Of a stretch of DNA of 64,000 bases, positions 5,071 to 54,664 are shown one piece after another. The notes under the pieces were generated by a model. That model made no database searches. It saw only the letters and a program-made list of their open reading frames with translations, and was not told the DNA's origin. Position numbers and translations under genes: made by a program. The stretch comes from Streptococcus sanguinis (lineage in GTDB: Bacteria; Bacillota; Bacilli; Lactobacillales; Streptococcaceae): the NCBI RefSeq assembly GCF_003943735.1, contig NZ_RJMV01000004.1:62001-126000 (forward strand), given 5' to 3'. The number at the start of each line of letters is the position of its first letter. Position 1 is the stretch's first letter.

Positions 5071-5497
5071 AAATATCCCATACATTGCCTTTCAAGACTC
5101 TTATCGGTTGCATTTCAGAAATTCTCTTAATATCAGGAATACTGTTTCTATTATGTTCTAGCGGGAAACCCAGAGTAAATTCAGAATCTTCAATATTATT
5201 AATTCTTCCGCTTAAAGTTAGTATATTCCCCCCACCTTGAGGAGTTCCGTTACCTATATCCTCAATTGTCAAACTACCCCAGTCAAACTGAACACTTTTA
5301 ACTTTAGGATTTCTGGATTTAACAAATTCAGCCATTTCTTCTTCATGCTTTTTTAAATAAGCTAGCTGTTTCTCTTTTGGACTTCTCAAATCGAAAGTCT
5401 CATCTGTGAATAAACTTTTGTTTTGAACTGTCATAATCGTCCCTCCTATGACTAGAGTGGTTGCTATCGCAAGAATAGCTAATCTATTTTTTTTCAT
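5063..5497 (-). CDS. Putative immunity protein, membrane-anchored (locus 1, copy adjacent to toxin)
   Basis: 144 residues with one N-terminal hydrophobic segment (residues 6-24) and an extracellular-facing remainder; no lipobox cysteine. Its first 55 residues are close to those of the protein at 5637 (shared KSLFTD, FDLRSP, EKQLAYLK and NPKV segments), and both contain GNGTPQG, while the C-terminal halves differ. Position directly before and overlapping the lipase gene, and outside-facing topology, fit an immunity protein against a lipase attacking the membrane surface (as TilA protects against TslA). I do not recognise the family. ATG 5497 has a GGAGG site and its own upstream -10. Confidence 0.65.
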   Translation of the reverse strand: MKKNRLAILAIATTLVIGGTIMTVQNKSLFTDETFDLRSPKEKQLAYLKKHEEEMAEFVKSRNPKVKSVQFDWGSLTIEDIGNGTPQGGGNILTLSGRINNIEDSEFTLGFPLEHNRNSIPDIKRISEMQPIRVLKGNVWDIYE

Positions 5498-5531
5498 TAT
5501 TTATCCTCCAAAGTAAAGAGAAGTTACTATT

Positions 5532-5540
5532 ATTATATCA
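5532..5540 (-). promoter_or_regulatory. Extended -10 promoter for immunity-toxin genes of locus 1
   Basis: Minus-strand TGATATAAT at 5532-5540, an extended -10, 35 nt upstream of the ATG at 5497; no good -35. It would let the adjacent immunity-toxin-partner genes be expressed without the upstream copy. Confidence 0.5.
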
Positions 5541-5548
5541 TGAATGCA

Positions 5549-5644
5549 TTAAAAAATAATTTTGAAAAGTATTCCGTAAAATATGAAATTTACAAACTGC
5601 GCTAAATTTGCGTAGAAATTATGAAAGTTTTTTAAATTACTCTT
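5549..5644 (-). pseudogene. Decayed 5' end of a second tslA-like toxin gene
   Basis: In the frame a toxin gene would use after the upstream immunity copy, the minus strand reads K-SNLKNFHNFYANLAQ; the intact effector begins M-SNSNLKTFDNFYGDLAQ. The DNA match runs over about 45 nt with few changes and includes the same immunity-stop/toxin-start overlap (GAGTAAT). The start codon position now reads AAG instead of ATG. Homology ends after LAQ and the frame stops at 5549. This is a direct sequence match, so loss of a former toxin gene here is well supported. Confidence 0.8.
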
Positions 5645-6080
5645 CGCCAAATCCTCTTCCTCCTACACGAAGCGGACTCCCACTTCCAATTCCTTCAATA
5701 AAATCTTCTTTATTGTTCTTTCCATCTTTTATGTAAACCAAAACACTCCAACTTGAATCTTTGATATGATTAAAACCACCAAAAACTCGAATAACATTAC
5801 CTTCACCCTGCGGTGTTCCATTTCCTATTTCTTCCCAACGTGTTTCTTCCCAAGCAATTTGAACAGACTCCACTTTAGGATTTAAAGACTTCACAAAATC
5901 TTCTATTTCTTTTTTATGCTCCTTCAAATAAGCTAGTTGTTTCTCTCTTGGACTTCTTAAATCGAAAATTCCATCTGTGAATAAACTTTTGTTTTGAACT
6001 GTCAGAATCGTCCCTCCTACGACCATAGAAGTGGTTAGCGCTACGATTGATAGAGTAGCCATTTTACTTTTTTTCATCAT
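5637..6080 (-). CDS. Putative orphan immunity protein (locus 1, upstream copy)
   Basis: 147 residues, one N-terminal membrane segment (residues about 8-27), outside-facing domain with GNGTPQG. It is a paralogue of the protein at 5063, nearly identical over the membrane segment and the region after it, and divergent after residue about 95. It is followed not by a toxin but by the decayed toxin start at 5597-5644, so it may now protect only against foreign relatives of the lost toxin. The first two codons are both ATG (6080 or 6077); the ribosome site is weak (AAGAAA). Immunity role inferred from position and paralogy. Confidence 0.6.
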   Translation of the reverse strand: MMKKSKMATLSIVALTTSMVVGGTILTVQNKSLFTDGIFDLRSPREKQLAYLKEHKKEIEDFVKSLNPKVESVQIAWEETRWEEIGNGTPQGEGNVIRVFGGFNHIKDSSWSVLVYIKDGKNNKEDFIEGIGSGSPLRVGGRGFGEE

Positions 6081-6162
6081 TTTTTCTTATATTCTACTAC
6101 TTTCTATGAATTTCACAGTATCACTTCTTAAGTCACTTCGTTTCTAAGAAGAATATACACCC

Positions 6163-6995: not shown

Positions 6996-7631
6996 CTAGC
7001 CCTCTCTGGCTTCCTTAAGGATTTTTTCAATCTTGGTCGTAATCAGGTCAATAGCCACCTTGTTTGAAGCTCCCTCTGGAATGATGACATCCGCATAGCG
7101 CTTGGTCGGCTCGATGAACTGATGGTACATAGGCTTAACGACACCCAAATACTGTTCGATAACGCTATCCAAACTGCGGCCGCGCTCTTCCATGTCCCGC
7201 TTAATACGACGAATAATCCGAACGTCATCATCTGTGTCCACAAAGATCTTAATATCCATCAAATCTCTCAGGCGCTGGTCCTCTAAGACCAAAATCCCCT
7301 CAACGATGAACACATCCTGAGGCTCCTGACGATAGGTCTTTTTGCTGCGGGTATGCTCCGTATAGTCATAAGTGGGAATATCCACTGGTCGACCAGCCAA
7401 GAGCTCCTTGATTTGCTCAATCATCAGGTCGGTATCAAAGGCAAAAGGATGGTCATAGTTGGTCTTCACCCGCTCCTCAAAAGTCAGATGCGTCTGATCC
7501 TTATAGTAGGAGTCATGCTCAATCATGGCAATATTTTCGTTTGGAAAATTAGCCAAAATTGCTCGAGAAACGCTGGTCTTTCCGCCTCCAGAACCACCAG
7601 TTACACCAATAATAATAGGTCTATTTTGCAT
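6996..7631 (-). CDS. udk: Uridine kinase
   Basis: Udk phosphorylates uridine and cytidine with ATP or GTP in pyrimidine salvage. The 211-residue protein starts [20 protein letters not shown], containing the P-loop GGSGGGKTS. It continues with [18 protein letters not shown] (substrate-binding region), the DYTEHTR loop, VEGILVLED (Walker B-like) and [13 protein letters not shown] lid region. ATG 7631 has GGAG seven bases upstream; the ATG at 7643 is too close to that site. Monocistronic by appearance, divergent from the oxidoreductase gene at 7741. Confidence 0.96.
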
Positions 7632-7677
7632 TATAAGCTCCATCTCTTGTTATCTTATCTATTTTACCGCAATTCAT

Positions 7678-7685
7678 GTTATAAT
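7678..7685 (+). promoter_or_regulatory. Extended -10 promoter for the oxidoreductase-helicase pair
   Basis: TG-T-TATAAT, extended -10 with TATAAT at 7680-7685; the -35 is poor. It lies about 55 nt upstream of the ATG at 7741, which has an AAGGAGG site. Confidence 0.6.
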
Positions 7686-7740
7686 GAAAGAGCTAAAATA
7701 AAAAAAGTACATGCTTAAAAATAGAAAAAAGGAGGTTTTT

Positions 7741-8721
7741 ATGCTCAAACTTGGAATCATCGGAACAGGTTCTATTTCTCATGAGTTCATCAAGGCCGCT
7801 CACTCAACAGGCGACTATCAACTTGCTGCTGTCTACTCTCGGACTTTAACTTCTGCTGAGCGCTTTGTGCAAAACTATGAAAATACAGCCGTCTATACTG
7901 AAATGTTGGACTTTCTGTCGTCCGATATTGATGTCGTTTATATCGCCAGTCCCAACAGCCTGCATTTCAAGCATGCCAAGGTAGCTATTCTGGCTCGTAA
8001 ACATGCCATTGTTGAAAAGCCTGCGGTTTCTCGTCCCAAAGAATGGCGGGAATTGGTCAAGCTGGCTGACGAGCATCAAGTCTATCTCTTTGAAGCTGCC
8101 CGCAACTATCATGAGCAGGCCTTTGATACAATCAGTGATTTTCTCAAGGACAAGACCGTCTTGGGAGCCAACTTCACCTATGCCAAATATTCTTCAAAAA
8201 TGCAAGCTCTGCTTGCGGGAGAGCAGCCCAATGTTTTCTCAGCTAAGTTTTCTGGCGGCGCTTTGATGGATTTGGGTGTCTATCCCGTCTATGCGGCTAT
8301 CAGACTTTTCGGCCATCCGCGCTTCGCTCGCTACAGCGCCCAGCAGCTAGCTAATACGATTGATTTAAATGGAGCCGGCTGTCTTATCTATCCAGATTTT
8401 CAAGTTCAGATTCAGGCCGGTAAGAATATAAACAGCAATCTGCCTGCAGAGATTTACACAGATCAGGGAACTCTGACTTTAGATGGGATTGAATTTATCA
8501 GCTCTGCTATTTTCCAAAATCTGGACGGTCAAGAAGAGGTGCTGCCTATCCAGCGTGCTTCCCATACCATGCTGGAAGAAGCTCAGGCTTTCGCGCGAGT
8601 GCTCAAGGGCGGACAGGATGCGGCTTATGAGAAATGGTTGGATGCGGCAGCGGCTGTTCATGAAAGCTTATTTGCCATGCGAAAGGACGCTGGCATTAGA
8701 TTTGAGGTTGATGATGATTAA
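7741..8721 (+). CDS. Gfo/Idh/MocA-family NAD(P)-dependent oxidoreductase
   Basis: 326 residues. The N-terminal Rossmann fold begins LGIIGTGSISHEF (GxGxxS dinucleotide loop), followed by AAVYSRT, DVVYIASPNSLHFKHAK and the EKP motif (IVEKPAVSRP) typical of this family's active-site entrance. The C-terminal alpha/beta domain includes GGALMDLGVYPVYAAIRLFG, the region holding the catalytic histidine-equivalent segment in relatives. Substrate is not deducible; family members act on sugars, inositols and their derivatives. The start at 7741 follows AAGGAGG; the ATG at 7711 lacks a site. The gene overlaps the helicase start by 8 nt, so the two form an operon. Confidence 0.88.
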   Translation: MLKLGIIGTGSISHEFIKAAHSTGDYQLAAVYSRTLTSAERFVQNYENTAVYTEMLDFLSSDIDVVYIASPNSLHFKHAKVAILARKHAIVEKPAVSRPKEWRELVKLADEHQVYLFEAARNYHEQAFDTISDFLKDKTVLGANFTYAKYSSKMQALLAGEQPNVFSAKFSGGALMDLGVYPVYAAIRLFGHPRFARYSAQQLANTIDLNGAGCLIYPDFQVQIQAGKNINSNLPAEIYTDQGTLTLDGIEFISSAIFQNLDGQEEVLPIQRASHTMLEEAQAFARVLKGGQDAAYEKWLDAAAAVHESLFAMRKDAGIRFEVDDD

Positions 8722-9802
8722 GGAACAATTTCCCCCGAGCTGGCAAAATCAGCTGGCTCAGCTAGGCTTTGAAGATTTGACGGCTATTCAAGAGAAGATG
8801 TTTGATTCTGTTTCTGCAGGCGATACGGTGCTGGGAATCAGTCCGACTGGTACTGGTAAAACTCTGGCCTATCTCTTTCCCAGTCTGCTCAAACTGACAC
8901 CTAAAAAAGCCCAACAACTCTTGATTTTAGCTCCTAATACTGAGCTGGCTGGACAAATCTTTGAGGTCTGCAAGACTTGGGCGGAGCCTTTAGGGCTGAC
9001 AGCCCAGCTCCTGCTCTCCGGTTCCAGTCAGAAGCGACAAATCGAGCGCCTTAAGAAAGGTCCAGAAATTATCATCGGAACGCCTGGACGGATTTTTGAG
9101 TTGGCCAAGCTCAAGAAAATCAAGATGATGAATGTCGAAACCATTATTTTGGATGAATTTGACCAGCTGCTCAGCGATTCTCAGTATCACTTTGTCGATA
9201 AAATCACCCACTATGCGCCTCGTGACCACCAGCTGGTATATATGAGCGCCACCGCTAAGTTCGACCACGACAAGATTGCTGAAAATACTCTAGAAATCAG
9301 CATTGCCGACCAAGTTTTGGATAACATCCAGCATTTTTACATGCAAGTCGAAAAACGTGATAAAGTGGAGTTGCTGCGTAAGTTATCCAATGTTGAAGAT
9401 TTCCGCGGACTGGTCTTTTTCAACGCTCTGTCAGACCTAGGCAGTGCTGAGGAAAAACTCCAATATCATGAAGCCAATGCCGTTTCTCTTGCCAGCGATG
9501 TCAACGTTAAGTTCCGCAAGGTGATTTTGGATAAGTTCAAAGAGCATCAGATTACTCTCCTGCTAGCCACTGACCTAGTTGCTCGCGGCATTGATATTGA
9601 CTCCCTAGAATGCGTCGTCAATTATGAGCTTCCGCGCGATTTAGAAACCTATACCCACCGCTCTGGACGAACCGGCCGCATGGGCAAGGAAGGCTACGTG
9701 ATTACCTTCATCAGCCATACAGAAGAGCTGAAAACATTGAAAAAATACGCCACCGTCCGAGAAATTGTATTAAAAAATCAAGAGCTTTATGTAAGGAGTT
9801 AA
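8714..9802 (+). CDS. DEAD-box-type RNA helicase (DEFD variant)
   Basis: 362 residues, a minimal two-domain superfamily 2 helicase. Seen in order: Q motif (FEDLTAIQEKM), motif I (SPTGTGKTLAYL), Ia (LAPNTELAGQ), Ib (GTPGRI), motif II as DEFD rather than DEAD, motif III SAT, motif V (ATDLVARGIDI) and motif VI (HRSGRTGRMG). No C-terminal RNA-binding extension, so it resembles short accessory helicases of ribosome assembly or mRNA handling; the target is unknown. ATG 8714 has GAGG six nt upstream; 8711 is an alternative. Translationally coupled to the preceding oxidoreductase. Confidence 0.9.
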   Translation: MIKEQFPPSWQNQLAQLGFEDLTAIQEKMFDSVSAGDTVLGISPTGTGKTLAYLFPSLLKLTPKKAQQLLILAPNTELAGQIFEVCKTWAEPLGLTAQLLLSGSSQKRQIERLKKGPEIIIGTPGRIFELAKLKKIKMMNVETIILDEFDQLLSDSQYHFVDKITHYAPRDHQLVYMSATAKFDHDKIAENTLEISIADQVLDNIQHFYMQVEKRDKVELLRKLSNVEDFRGLVFFNALSDLGSAEEKLQYHEANAVSLASDVNVKFRKVILDKFKEHQITLLLATDLVARGIDIDSLECVVNYELPRDLETYTHRSGRTGRMGKEGYVITFISHTEELKTLKKYATVREIVLKNQELYVRS

Positions 9803-9803
9803 G

Positions 9804-9845
9804 CTAAAAAAGCTTTGGAAATCTCATGTTTCCAAAGCTTTTTGC
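9804..9845. terminator. Bidirectional terminator between helicase and pgdA
   Basis: AAAGCTTTGGAAA and TTTCCAAAGCTTT enclose a short loop, with A-rich and T-rich flanks on both sides. It separates the converging plus-strand helicase and minus-strand pgdA. Confidence 0.85.
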
Positions 9846-9894
9846 TTTTACTCATTGCCAACAAGAATTTCAAAAAACTAACCCCAAGACCGTC

Positions 9895-11292
9895 TTAGTC
9901 TCTGCCGTAATAAATACGATGCGGCTCTAGCTGGCCTTCCAGCAGCTCATCGACCGTTACCAAAGTATAGCCGTTACTCTTCAGATACTCGAGAACACTT
10001 GGCAGAGCGTCAATACTGGTCTGGTGAATATCATGCATGAGGATAATCGAGCCTGGCTGGGTTTTGGCAATCTCTTGCATAATGGCTTTAGTATTGCGTG
10101 TCTTCCAGTCTAGACTGTCTACATTCCACATGATAAAGGACTGGTCAACCGAATTTTGAATTGTAGCATTAATAGCTCCATAAGGAGGCCGCGTAATCGT
10201 TGGCTTGATGCCTATGACATTGTTAATAGCAGTCTGGGTATCAAGGATTTCTTTTTGGGCCGATTCCAGAGGAAGTTTGGTTAAGACTGGATGGTCCCAT
10301 GTATGAATCCCAATCTGATGACCTTCATTGTGCACGCGCTTGACGATCGCTTCATTACCAGCAATGTTTTGCCCAACCATAAAGAAGGTCGCCTTGGCAC
10401 CATATTTCTTGAGGATATCCAGAGCCTGCGGTGTTGTCTTAGGATCTGGACCGTCATCAAAGGTCAGAGCAACCATTTTCACATGCTTCTTAGCCTCGAA
10501 ACTCTGATAAGCTGCCAAGTCATCTCCAGTCAGATAGTTCGCATTGATCTGGTCATAAAAGCTAGACAAAGGAACGTCAATGCTGGTTAAGCCTTGCACT
10601 TCCTTACTCAGCTTAATAGAAAAATGGCTGTACTCATAACGGAAGGACCACTGACCCAATTCCGTTCCATTGAGGGTATTGAGAATTTCCGTCTGCACCG
10701 CCTCATCGGCCTGTCTAAAGGTCAGCTGGCTGGATATCTCGTTGATGAAGATTTCCTTAGCTACATCGGGATCCTGAAAGAGCTTATCCAGAGTGAAACG
10801 GCTGCCGTCTGCACCAAGGTAGCTGTCAGCAACTTCCCGCTCTTCTCCTTTACTGATTTTCATCTCTTTGACATGATAGTCCTTGCGATGCACCAGTACT
10901 TCTTTAACATCCTTCAGGCTCGTTTCTTTTTCCTCGGCATAGTAGAAGGTCAATTCCTCAATCTTATCGCCCTTCTTCTGATTATCCTTAATCGTCTGGC
11001 TATCTGCGTCCATCTGCTCCTTGACGCTTGCCACGACCTGTCCATCTAGCAGAGGATAAAAGGACTCCACATAGTGGCTGCCAATCATCTTGCTCTGCTT
11101 TTCAGTATTTTCAGCGTGGAGGGTCTCTTCTTGGGCAATCAGCACACTAACTTTCTCTTGCAGTTCCTTTTCTTGGAAAATAGCGTAAATTTTTACAGCA
11201 CCCAGAAATAGAGCAGCAACAAAAGCTAAACCTAGCAAGCTGAGAACAATGAGTGTTTTCTTACCGTGTTTCTTGTTATTTTGTCTTTTCAT
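9895..11292 (-). CDS. pgdA: Peptidoglycan N-acetylglucosamine deacetylase
   Basis: PgdA removes acetyl groups from GlcNAc in peptidoglycan, giving lysozyme resistance in streptococci. The 465-residue protein has an N-terminal membrane anchor (residues about 14-36), a long extracellular linker and a C-terminal NodB polysaccharide deacetylase domain. Visible active-site motifs are TFDDGPDPKTT (motif 1, catalytic base and metal Asp), HTWDHP (metal histidines), RPPYG (motif 3) and ILMHDIH near the end. Length and layout match pneumococcal PgdA. ATG at 11292. It stands alone, with a terminator at its 3' side. Confidence 0.93.
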   Translation of the reverse strand: MKRQNNKKHGKKTLIVLSLLGLAFVAALFLGAVKIYAIFQEKELQEKVSVLIAQEETLHAENTEKQSKMIGSHYVESFYPLLDGQVVASVKEQMDADSQTIKDNQKKGDKIEELTFYYAEEKETSLKDVKEVLVHRKDYHVKEMKISKGEEREVADSYLGADGSRFTLDKLFQDPDVAKEIFINEISSQLTFRQADEAVQTEILNTLNGTELGQWSFRYEYSHFSIKLSKEVQGLTSIDVPLSSFYDQINANYLTGDDLAAYQSFEAKKHVKMVALTFDDGPDPKTTPQALDILKKYGAKATFFMVGQNIAGNEAIVKRVHNEGHQIGIHTWDHPVLTKLPLESAQKEILDTQTAINNVIGIKPTITRPPYGAINATIQNSVDQSFIMWNVDSLDWKTRNTKAIMQEIAKTQPGSIILMHDIHQTSIDALPSVLEYLKSNGYTLVTVDELLEGQLEPHRIYYGRD

Positions 11293-53904: not shown

Positions 53905-53934
53905 AAAAAAGGAAACTCCTTTCTCAGAGTTTCC
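53905..53934 (-). terminator. Terminator of the lipoprotein gene
   Basis: Minus-strand GGAAACTC TGAGAAAG GAGTTTCC TTTTTT, 8-bp perfect stem, downstream of the lipoprotein stop at 53989. Confidence 0.9.
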
Positions 53935-53988
53935 TAGTTAGATTCCCTCACTGCTCATCCTGTTGTCCTGAGCAGAATGAAAAGCTCT

Positions 53989-54459
53989 TTACTGCTTGGT
54001 AAAGGTCAGAGTGTCTGGATCATCATCCAATTCGTCCACAATCAGCTGATTGCCATTTTGGCGGTAACTCTTGACATCATCACCGACAATCAGTCTTTGG
54101 TTAGCAGCATCTACTTGTACCTGCTTGATTTCCTTACTGCCATCAACCTCGGTCTCAGTCCAGGTACCAGTCGTACCATTGATTTCCAGGACATGCTGGT
54201 CACCATCATGGTCGGTTGCTTGATAGCGCCCGTCTAGATTAGTAGCCTGCCCTGCATTTGATGATGAAGAAGGCTGATTAGAGGAAGATGTGGCTGATGA
54301 CTGCGAAGTCTGATTTTGCGCAGATTGTGATGTCTGGCCTTGTGTATTCTGTGATGAACTAGTATTCCCTCCTTGGTTGGTATTGCCTGAGCAAGCAGCC
54401 AATAGGACTGCTGCTGTCAGAGATAGAATTCCGATAAAGGCTTTTTTTGTAATAGTCAT
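53989..54459 (-). CDS. Small Ser/Gln/Asn-rich lipoprotein under a cop-box-like promoter
   Basis: 156 residues. Signal peptide with lipobox LAAC (Cys 23), then a Ser/Gln/Asn-rich linker (about 24-72) and a C-terminal beta-rich domain of about 80 residues (LDGRYQATDHDGDQHVLEI, GTWTETEVDG, YRQNGNQLIVDEL). No known family; the domain looks like a small lipocalin-like or DUF-type barrel, which is only a guess from alternating patterns. Two TACANNTGTA-type sites overlap its promoter, suggesting control by a CopY/BlaI-type repressor, hence possibly copper. AAAGGAG site before ATG. Confidence 0.8.
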   Translation of the reverse strand: MTITKKAFIGILSLTAAVLLAACSGNTNQGGNTSSSQNTQGQTSQSAQNQTSQSSATSSSNQPSSSSNAGQATNLDGRYQATDHDGDQHVLEINGTTGTWTETEVDGSKEIKQVQVDAANQRLIVGDDVKSYRQNGNQLIVDELDDDPDTLTFTKQ

Positions 54460-54478
54460 ATCGCTTTCTCCTTTTTTC

Positions 54479-54539
54479 TACATTTGTAGTTTATACTTAT
54501 ATTCTACACTTGTCTGTTTCATTTGTCAAGAAAAAGCAG
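54479..54539 (-). promoter_or_regulatory. Lipoprotein promoter with two CopY-type boxes
   Basis: Minus-strand TTGACA (54534-54539), 17 bp, TAGAAT (54511-54516). Box 1, CTACATTTGTAG (54478-54489), is a perfect palindrome with core TACANNTGTA. Box 2, GACAAGTGTA on the minus strand (54515-54524), overlaps the -10 and fits KACANNTGTA. A degenerate third copy (GACAAATGAA, 54528-54537) overlaps the -35. The consensus is that of CopY/CopR and related BlaI/MecI repressors. Confidence 0.6.
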
Positions 54540-54636: not shown

Positions 54637-54664
54637 TTGACAAAATAGTTCCCTATCGTATAAT
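54637..54664 (+). promoter_or_regulatory. Promoter of the 54694 acetyltransferase
   Basis: TTGACA (54637-54642), 16 bp, TATAAT (54659-54664): both hexamers perfect, 30 nt upstream of the start codon. Confidence 0.85.

Follow-up and report, generated by a model that had tools for sequence, protein, structure and literature searches.

The gene of an SP_0198-family lipoprotein in Streptococcus sanguinis is very probably regulated by a BlaI-type repressor encoded elsewhere in the genome, as judged from the operators at its promoter. Sequence comparisons point to a small envelope regulon, in which this gene would be accompanied by the blaI-blaR1-like genes and a VTC-DUF4956 operon. The window, i.e., the whole stretch of 64,000 nucleotides analyzed here, is part of contig C4 of a 2.39-Mb genome, and all the features of the lipoprotein gene described below lie on its minus strand. 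A promoter scan identified a -35 element TTGACA (54524-54529) and, after a 17-base spacer, a -10 element TAGAAT (54501-54506), which together agree with 11 of 12 consensus bases. The scan covered 901 bases and found two such promoters, where 2.3 are expected from shuffled sequence, so a match of this quality carries no significance of its own. Operator 1, read from the sequence as GACAAGTGTA (54505-54514), shares the bases TA with the -10 element, and its extended form GACAAGTGTAGAAT is identical to the site at the blaI promoter. Operator 2, CTACATTTGTAG (54478-54489; CTACAAATGTAG on the minus strand), is located downstream of the -10 element, 26 bp from operator 1, at what would be approximately the transcription start of the lipoprotein gene. 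The initial annotation had described a perfect palindrome and a KACANNTGTA site at a near-consensus promoter. Both sites and the promoter were recovered, and the word "perfect" applies only to the 5-base arms (CTACA/TGTAG) of the 12-mer, whose two middle bases are TT on one strand and AA on the opposite one, giving a 5+2+5 structure. A putative ribosome-binding site, AAGGAG (54468-54473), was recognized by eye. On the 3' side of the gene, a terminator-like hairpin with a 10-pair stem and a T-rich tail (53910-53935) suggests a one-gene transcript; two terminator-like sites were found against 0.6 expected in shuffles. Elsewhere in the window, a 12/12 match to a sigma-70-type promoter with a 16-base spacer (54637-54664) precedes a GNAT acetyltransferase gene.

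The lipoprotein gene (53989-54459) is an open reading frame of 156 amino acids, with a lipobox (LLAAC) identified by eye, a Ser/Gln-rich linker, and a DUF3642 domain (Pfam, 5e-14). Described initially as an unknown lipoprotein, the protein can be assigned to the SP_0198 family (NF040528 of NCBIfam, 165.7 bits against a cut-off of 100), which has solved structures (3ge2 and 5cyb); no paper on DUF3642 was found in the open-licence literature. It is 96 to 99% identical to seven named S. sanguinis copies and represents a second copy (paralogue) of the family in this genome. The other copy (C2:106179-106640, 183.2 bits) is 48% identical and showed no such operator site in the 2 kb examined. Likewise, among 22 other SP_0198-family loci hand-picked from the family matches, 21 had no KACANNTGTM site within the 1.5 to 2 kb examined, and the only site found, in the remaining locus, was inside the reading frame.

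A profile search of the genome gave three matches to PF03965, on contigs C11, C1, and C5, in agreement with the earlier statement that no copY gene is in the window. The third match is weak (22.7 bits against a cut-off of 22.6, in a 798-residue frame), and the clear PF03965 repressors are two, CopY and a BlaI-like protein. The genome-wide search for a copY gene located it on C11, followed by copA-like and copZ-like genes (named by eye); its product scored 129.9 bits against the TIGR02698 cut-off of 121.95 and has two CxC motifs. The BlaI-like protein scored 71.1 bits against the same cut-off, contains no cysteine, and has no C-terminal CxC, and its assignment as a CopY/TcrY repressor was ruled out on these grounds. 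On C1, blaI comes first in a row of four genes (7173-10836 of the extracted locus), the next being those of a BlaR1-like M56 protease, a VTC-domain protein, and a DUF4956 protein; dnaG-like and rpoD-like genes are nearby (by eye). This adjacency of a PF03965 repressor (88.1 bits) and an M56 protease (161.1 bits) is that of BlaI/MecI-type systems. The protease carries the HExxH motif as HELTH at residue 204, and the motif is present in 21 of 23 other BlaR1-like loci (20 HELTH and 1 HELVH), the exceptions being L168 and L169. Furthermore, repressor gene and target share an operator, as GACAAGTGTAGAAT is found at both the blaI and the lipoprotein promoters. The search for other site pairs found the double arrangement once more, at the VTC operon, with the same layout as that of the lipoprotein promoter (TTGACA-17-TAGAAT and two sites 26 bp apart); upstream of the VTC-domain gene there are two CTACATTTGTAG sites and one GACAATTGTAGAAT, and the remaining GACAAGTGTAGAAT sits over the promoter of blaI. 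A second VTC-domain gene (C6:41318-41971) overlaps the gene of an exported Ser/Gly-rich protein with a lipobox-like motif.

The BlaR1-like protein (585 residues) matched the blaR1_generic model only over residues 4 to 336, with 146.8 bits against a cut-off of 400. Only its M56 domain passed the Pfam cut-off, and no C-terminal penicillin-binding domain of the BlaR1/MecR1 sensor type was recognized. In the 86 residues following the protease half, PF03413 (PepSY) was matched at E values up to 1 in 9 of 12 orthologues, with a best value of 8e-6; the match in this genome's own protein is weak (E 0.04, under Pfam's cut-off). The structure model of this 86-residue domain shows one helix followed by four strands (mean pLDDT 72.7, pTM 0.50). 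A fold search with it gave a best E value of 0.0069, with none at 0.001, and the presence of YpeB C-terminal and DUF2874 structures in its top ten is suggestive only. The tail of the protein is Asp-rich. BLASTP between the BlaR1-like external domain and the PepSY-repeat protein of the same locus detected no similarity. A beta-lactam signal is unlikely, because the BlaR1 match is limited to the protease half and is followed by a PepSY-like domain and an Asp-rich tail; the envelope signal proposed to activate the BlaR1-like protein is probably of another kind.

The co-occurrence of the sites with this repressor was evaluated in a sample of 147 genomes of the genus, in which this blaI was defined by at least 55% identity. 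It was found in 24 genomes (15 at 89% identity or more, 7 at 66 to 69%, one at 55%, and one, G035, with a frameshift); the next BlaI match by score was 30% identical, and none exceeded 37% among the other matches listed. The double-site promoter was present in 21 of the 147 genomes, every one of them belonging to the 24 with this blaI, and was absent from all 123 others (Fisher p about 1e-22, a value that ignores shared ancestry and overstates independence). Because all the sequences are related and come from one genus, the counts are not independent. The 29 double-site places were distributed between the lipoprotein gene (15) and the VTC-type operon (14), and the exact double site was absent in three blaI genomes (G102, G023, and G130). 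A lipoprotein orthologue with at least 72% identity occurred in 16 of the 147 genomes, all 16 among the 24 with blaI, the other matches listed being at most 55% identical; the remaining 8 blaI genomes had no close orthologue. In 17 named lipoprotein loci from 16 genomes (S. sanguinis, S. cristatus, Streptococcus sp. Marseille-P6264, S. sinensis, and S. gordonii), at least one site was present in 17/17 and both sites, 26 bp apart, in 16/17, a copy from S. sinensis (L067) having lost the second one. A second lipoprotein match in S. sinensis HKU4 (L070) has both operators. In the 9 of 19 aligned sequences viewed, the region upstream of the -35 element had diverged and operator 2 was nearly unchanged, as compared by eye.

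Some of these genomes show partial decay of the system. Both operator 1 and the -35 element have decayed in G102, to GATAAATGTA and TGGACA, respectively. The loci of G102 (L168) and G008 (L169) have lost much of the BlaR1-like gene, including HExxH, and also VTC, and VTC is lost in G017 (L170) as well; blaI is retained in all three, as are sites at the lipoprotein gene of these genomes. G035 has a frameshift in blaI and intact operators, possibly representing a natural derepressed strain or a sequencing error. Additionally, in two loci read from the group with 66 to 69% identity in blaI, the double promoter is followed by a gene of an exported PepSY-repeat-type protein and then by VTC-DUF4956 (Pfam on one of them).

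Operators of the CopY and BlaI classes were distinguishable by their sequence. The CopY consensus is RNYKACANNYGTMRNY (PMC7253601), and the two CopY operators of this genome, TACAAATGTA, read GATTACAAATGTAAA and are 29 bp apart. All 17 CopY-class sites matched the consensus with 0 mismatches, and all 119 BlaI-class sites (blaI 24, VTC 64, and lipoprotein 31) had at least one; the CopY-class set came from already-collected loci only and was reduced to 10 distinct promoters (including one in front of a P-type ATPase-like gene, not copY), and the BlaI-class sites were counted per locus. In the window, operator 1 has two mismatches to this consensus and operator 2 has one. The flank TGTAGAA was found in 118 of 119 BlaI-class sites (lipoprotein 30/31, blaI 24/24, and VTC 64/64) and 0/17 of the CopY class, a comparison biased by the choice of the CopY-class first sites with TGTA[AG]ACT fixed. 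Counted as distinct 18-mers, the flank was present in 4/5 for the lipoprotein, 6/6 for blaI, and 22/22 for VTC (32/33 counted per class) and in 0/12 of the CopY class. As the first-site flank TAGAAT doubles as the -10 element, a fairer comparison is given by the sites that lie outside it and by a pattern open to both classes. At the downstream sites, outside the -10 element, TGTAGAA was present in VTC 41/41 and lipoprotein 13/14 and in 0/7 CopY second sites. The pattern open to both classes gave 84 matches in the 24 blaI genomes against 5 for the reversed control, and 55 of them, at blaI (22), the VTC operon (18), and the lipoprotein gene (15), all end in TGTAGAAT, as does one of the other 29. 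This lone promoter (L227, G023:C1:887768) precedes a UDP-GlcNAc 2-epimerase-like gene (by eye), which is not a member of the regulon proposed here, and may be an extra target or chance.

Across the genome, counts of the 10-base box by itself do not exceed chance, unlike those of the paired, extended arrangement. KACANNTGTA gave six strand-matches at four places in the window against 2.08 expected, a number reached by 5 of 100 shuffles, and the 10-mer NKACANNTGTMN occurred 114 times in the whole genome against 113 for the reversed control, so it is not evidence by itself; genome counts of the bare KACANNTGTM were dropped for the same lack of excess. In contrast to the bare box, CTACANNTGTAG occurred once in the window against 0.03 expected (present in 3 of 100 shuffles), and the double arrangement GACAANTGTAGAAT-N8-16-CTACANNTGTAG occurred twice in the genome, at the lipoprotein promoter and the VTC operon. 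Exact matches to GACAANTGTAGAAT were three (the blaI, VTC-DUF4956, and lipoprotein promoters), and CTACATTTGTAG was also found three times, at the lipoprotein promoter and twice upstream of the VTC operon, with one match in the reversed control. Allowing up to two mismatches to GACAANTGTAGAAT gave 74 matches against 54 in the control, and only the three perfect matches were kept as the strong set. The one-mismatch matches were C7:4439 (inside a helicase-like frame, named by eye), C7:32824, and C8:11983; operator 2 and the pair of CTACATTTGTAG sites upstream of the VTC operon are among those with two mismatches. The lack of enrichment of the 10-mer would be expected if the sites were chance palindromes without a regulatory role. 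This explanation is nevertheless extremely improbable, as the reversed control of the double arrangement was found in 0 of the 147 genomes and both sites persist in S. sanguinis, S. cristatus, and S. gordonii and in one S. sinensis copy out of two despite the divergence upstream of the -35 element (by eye).

The repression of the lipoprotein gene by CopY, which would make it a member of the copper regulon, is also very unlikely. The genome does contain copY with its two TACAAATGTA operators, the 10-base core of operator 2 is the same as that of CopY with a single mismatch to the consensus, and in S. pneumoniae, too, TGTA is followed by G in the CopY operator, ATTGACAAATGTAGAT (PMC7253601). On the contrary, the consensus that fits every CopY-class site fits 0/31 lipoprotein sites, and at position 3 of the consensus operator 1 carries an A; replacing T with A at this position eliminated the binding of pneumococcal CopY (PMC7253601). 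Seven candidate sites of S. pneumoniae (10-mer with one variation allowed) were also unbound by CopY (PMC7253601). According to the Discussion of the same paper, the search for an expanded CopY motif in several streptococcal species gave no additional sites, which fits lipoprotein sites belonging to another repressor. Moreover, some match to the BlaI query exists in 144 of 147 genomes, mostly weak (25 to 37% among the matches listed), and the double site tracks the specific blaI. An equally small probability is given to a joint action, with BlaI as the main regulator and CopY acting weakly on operator 2, through which the lipoprotein would be tied to copper stress; in favor of it, operator 2 departs from the consensus at a single position, and CopY proteins are able to recognize certain operators from other species (PMC7253601), but the TGTAGAA flank is common to the second operators of VTC and the lipoprotein and absent from the seven CopY second sites examined. 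Copper as the main signal was rejected on the operator flanks. Consequently, of the suggested copper (or BlaI-type) regulon, the BlaI-type part is sustained by the extended site also found over the blaI promoter and the copper part is mostly not, given the mismatches to the CopY consensus; the CopY/BlaI-type class of the sites and the extra regulon member both hold up. Another Ser-rich lipoprotein-like gene lies shortly after copYAZ (5480-6082 of locus L023) and is a possible member of the copper operon.

BlaI-type control of the lipoprotein gene has its closest known counterparts in the staphylococcal BlaI-BlaR1 and MecI-MecR1 systems, where a PF03965 repressor also adjoins an M56 HExxH membrane protease and TACA-N2-TGTA operators are located at the promoter. 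Structure matches linked the repressor to MecI (1okr, E 9e-12) and the protease to BlaR1 (8exp, E 5e-12); both proteins score below the NCBIfam cut-offs for BlaI, MecI, and BlaR1. In contrast to BlaR1/MecR1, the streptococcal protease has a PepSY-like domain and an Asp-rich tail and no recognizable penicillin-binding sensor, and the proposed targets are the lipoprotein gene and the VTC-DUF4956 operon instead of beta-lactamase or PBP2a. The streptococcal CopY-copYAZ system shares PF03965, the 10-base core, and the presence of two operators, one of them running into the -10 element, and differs in the operator flanks, the spacing (29 bp against 26 bp), and the CxC motif, absent from BlaI. CotH-polyphosphate polymerase-DUF4956 accessory genes adjoin pel clusters in streptococci and clostridia (PMC7112168). 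They share with our locus a VTC-type polymerase with DUF4956, which here adjoins blaI-blaR1-like genes, and no CotH or pel gene was seen by eye among the open reading frames around it.

From these data we infer the binding of BlaI, its cleavage, the signal, and the direction of regulation as follows. BlaI would bind as dimers to operator 1, over the -10 element, and to operator 2, near the transcription start, and block RNA polymerase. An envelope signal would activate the BlaR1-like M56 protease through its external PepSY-like domain, and the activated protease would cleave BlaI, leading to the joint induction of the lipoprotein gene, the blaI-blaR1-like genes, and the neighboring VTC-DUF4956 operon. 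Such proteolytic relief of repression by the M56 protease appears reasonably likely. Induction of this kind cannot work in G102 and G008, because the BlaR1-like gene is broken there.

In the open-licence literature, we found no published description of this regulon and no paper relating BlaI to polyphosphate. A broader reading, which we propose tentatively and with slightly less than even confidence, is that oral streptococci have converted the BlaI/BlaR1-like pair into an envelope-signal switch, with a PepSY-like domain in place of the penicillin sensor. The targets of this switch would be exported proteins (the SP_0198-type lipoprotein in the sanguinis group and the PepSY-repeat protein in another) and a VTC-DUF4956 operon making or handling a polyanionic polymer such as polyphosphate. 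The ambiguity of repressors sharing a 10-base core has already been warned of (PMC7253601), and the flank rule described here (TGTAGAA against mostly TGTAAA) separates two such repressors within one genome. With this system, streptococci would offer an example of BlaI-type control in which no beta-lactam sensor is recognizable. Finally, the SP_0198-type lipoprotein gains a candidate regulator and partner genes, and thus its role becomes testable genetically.
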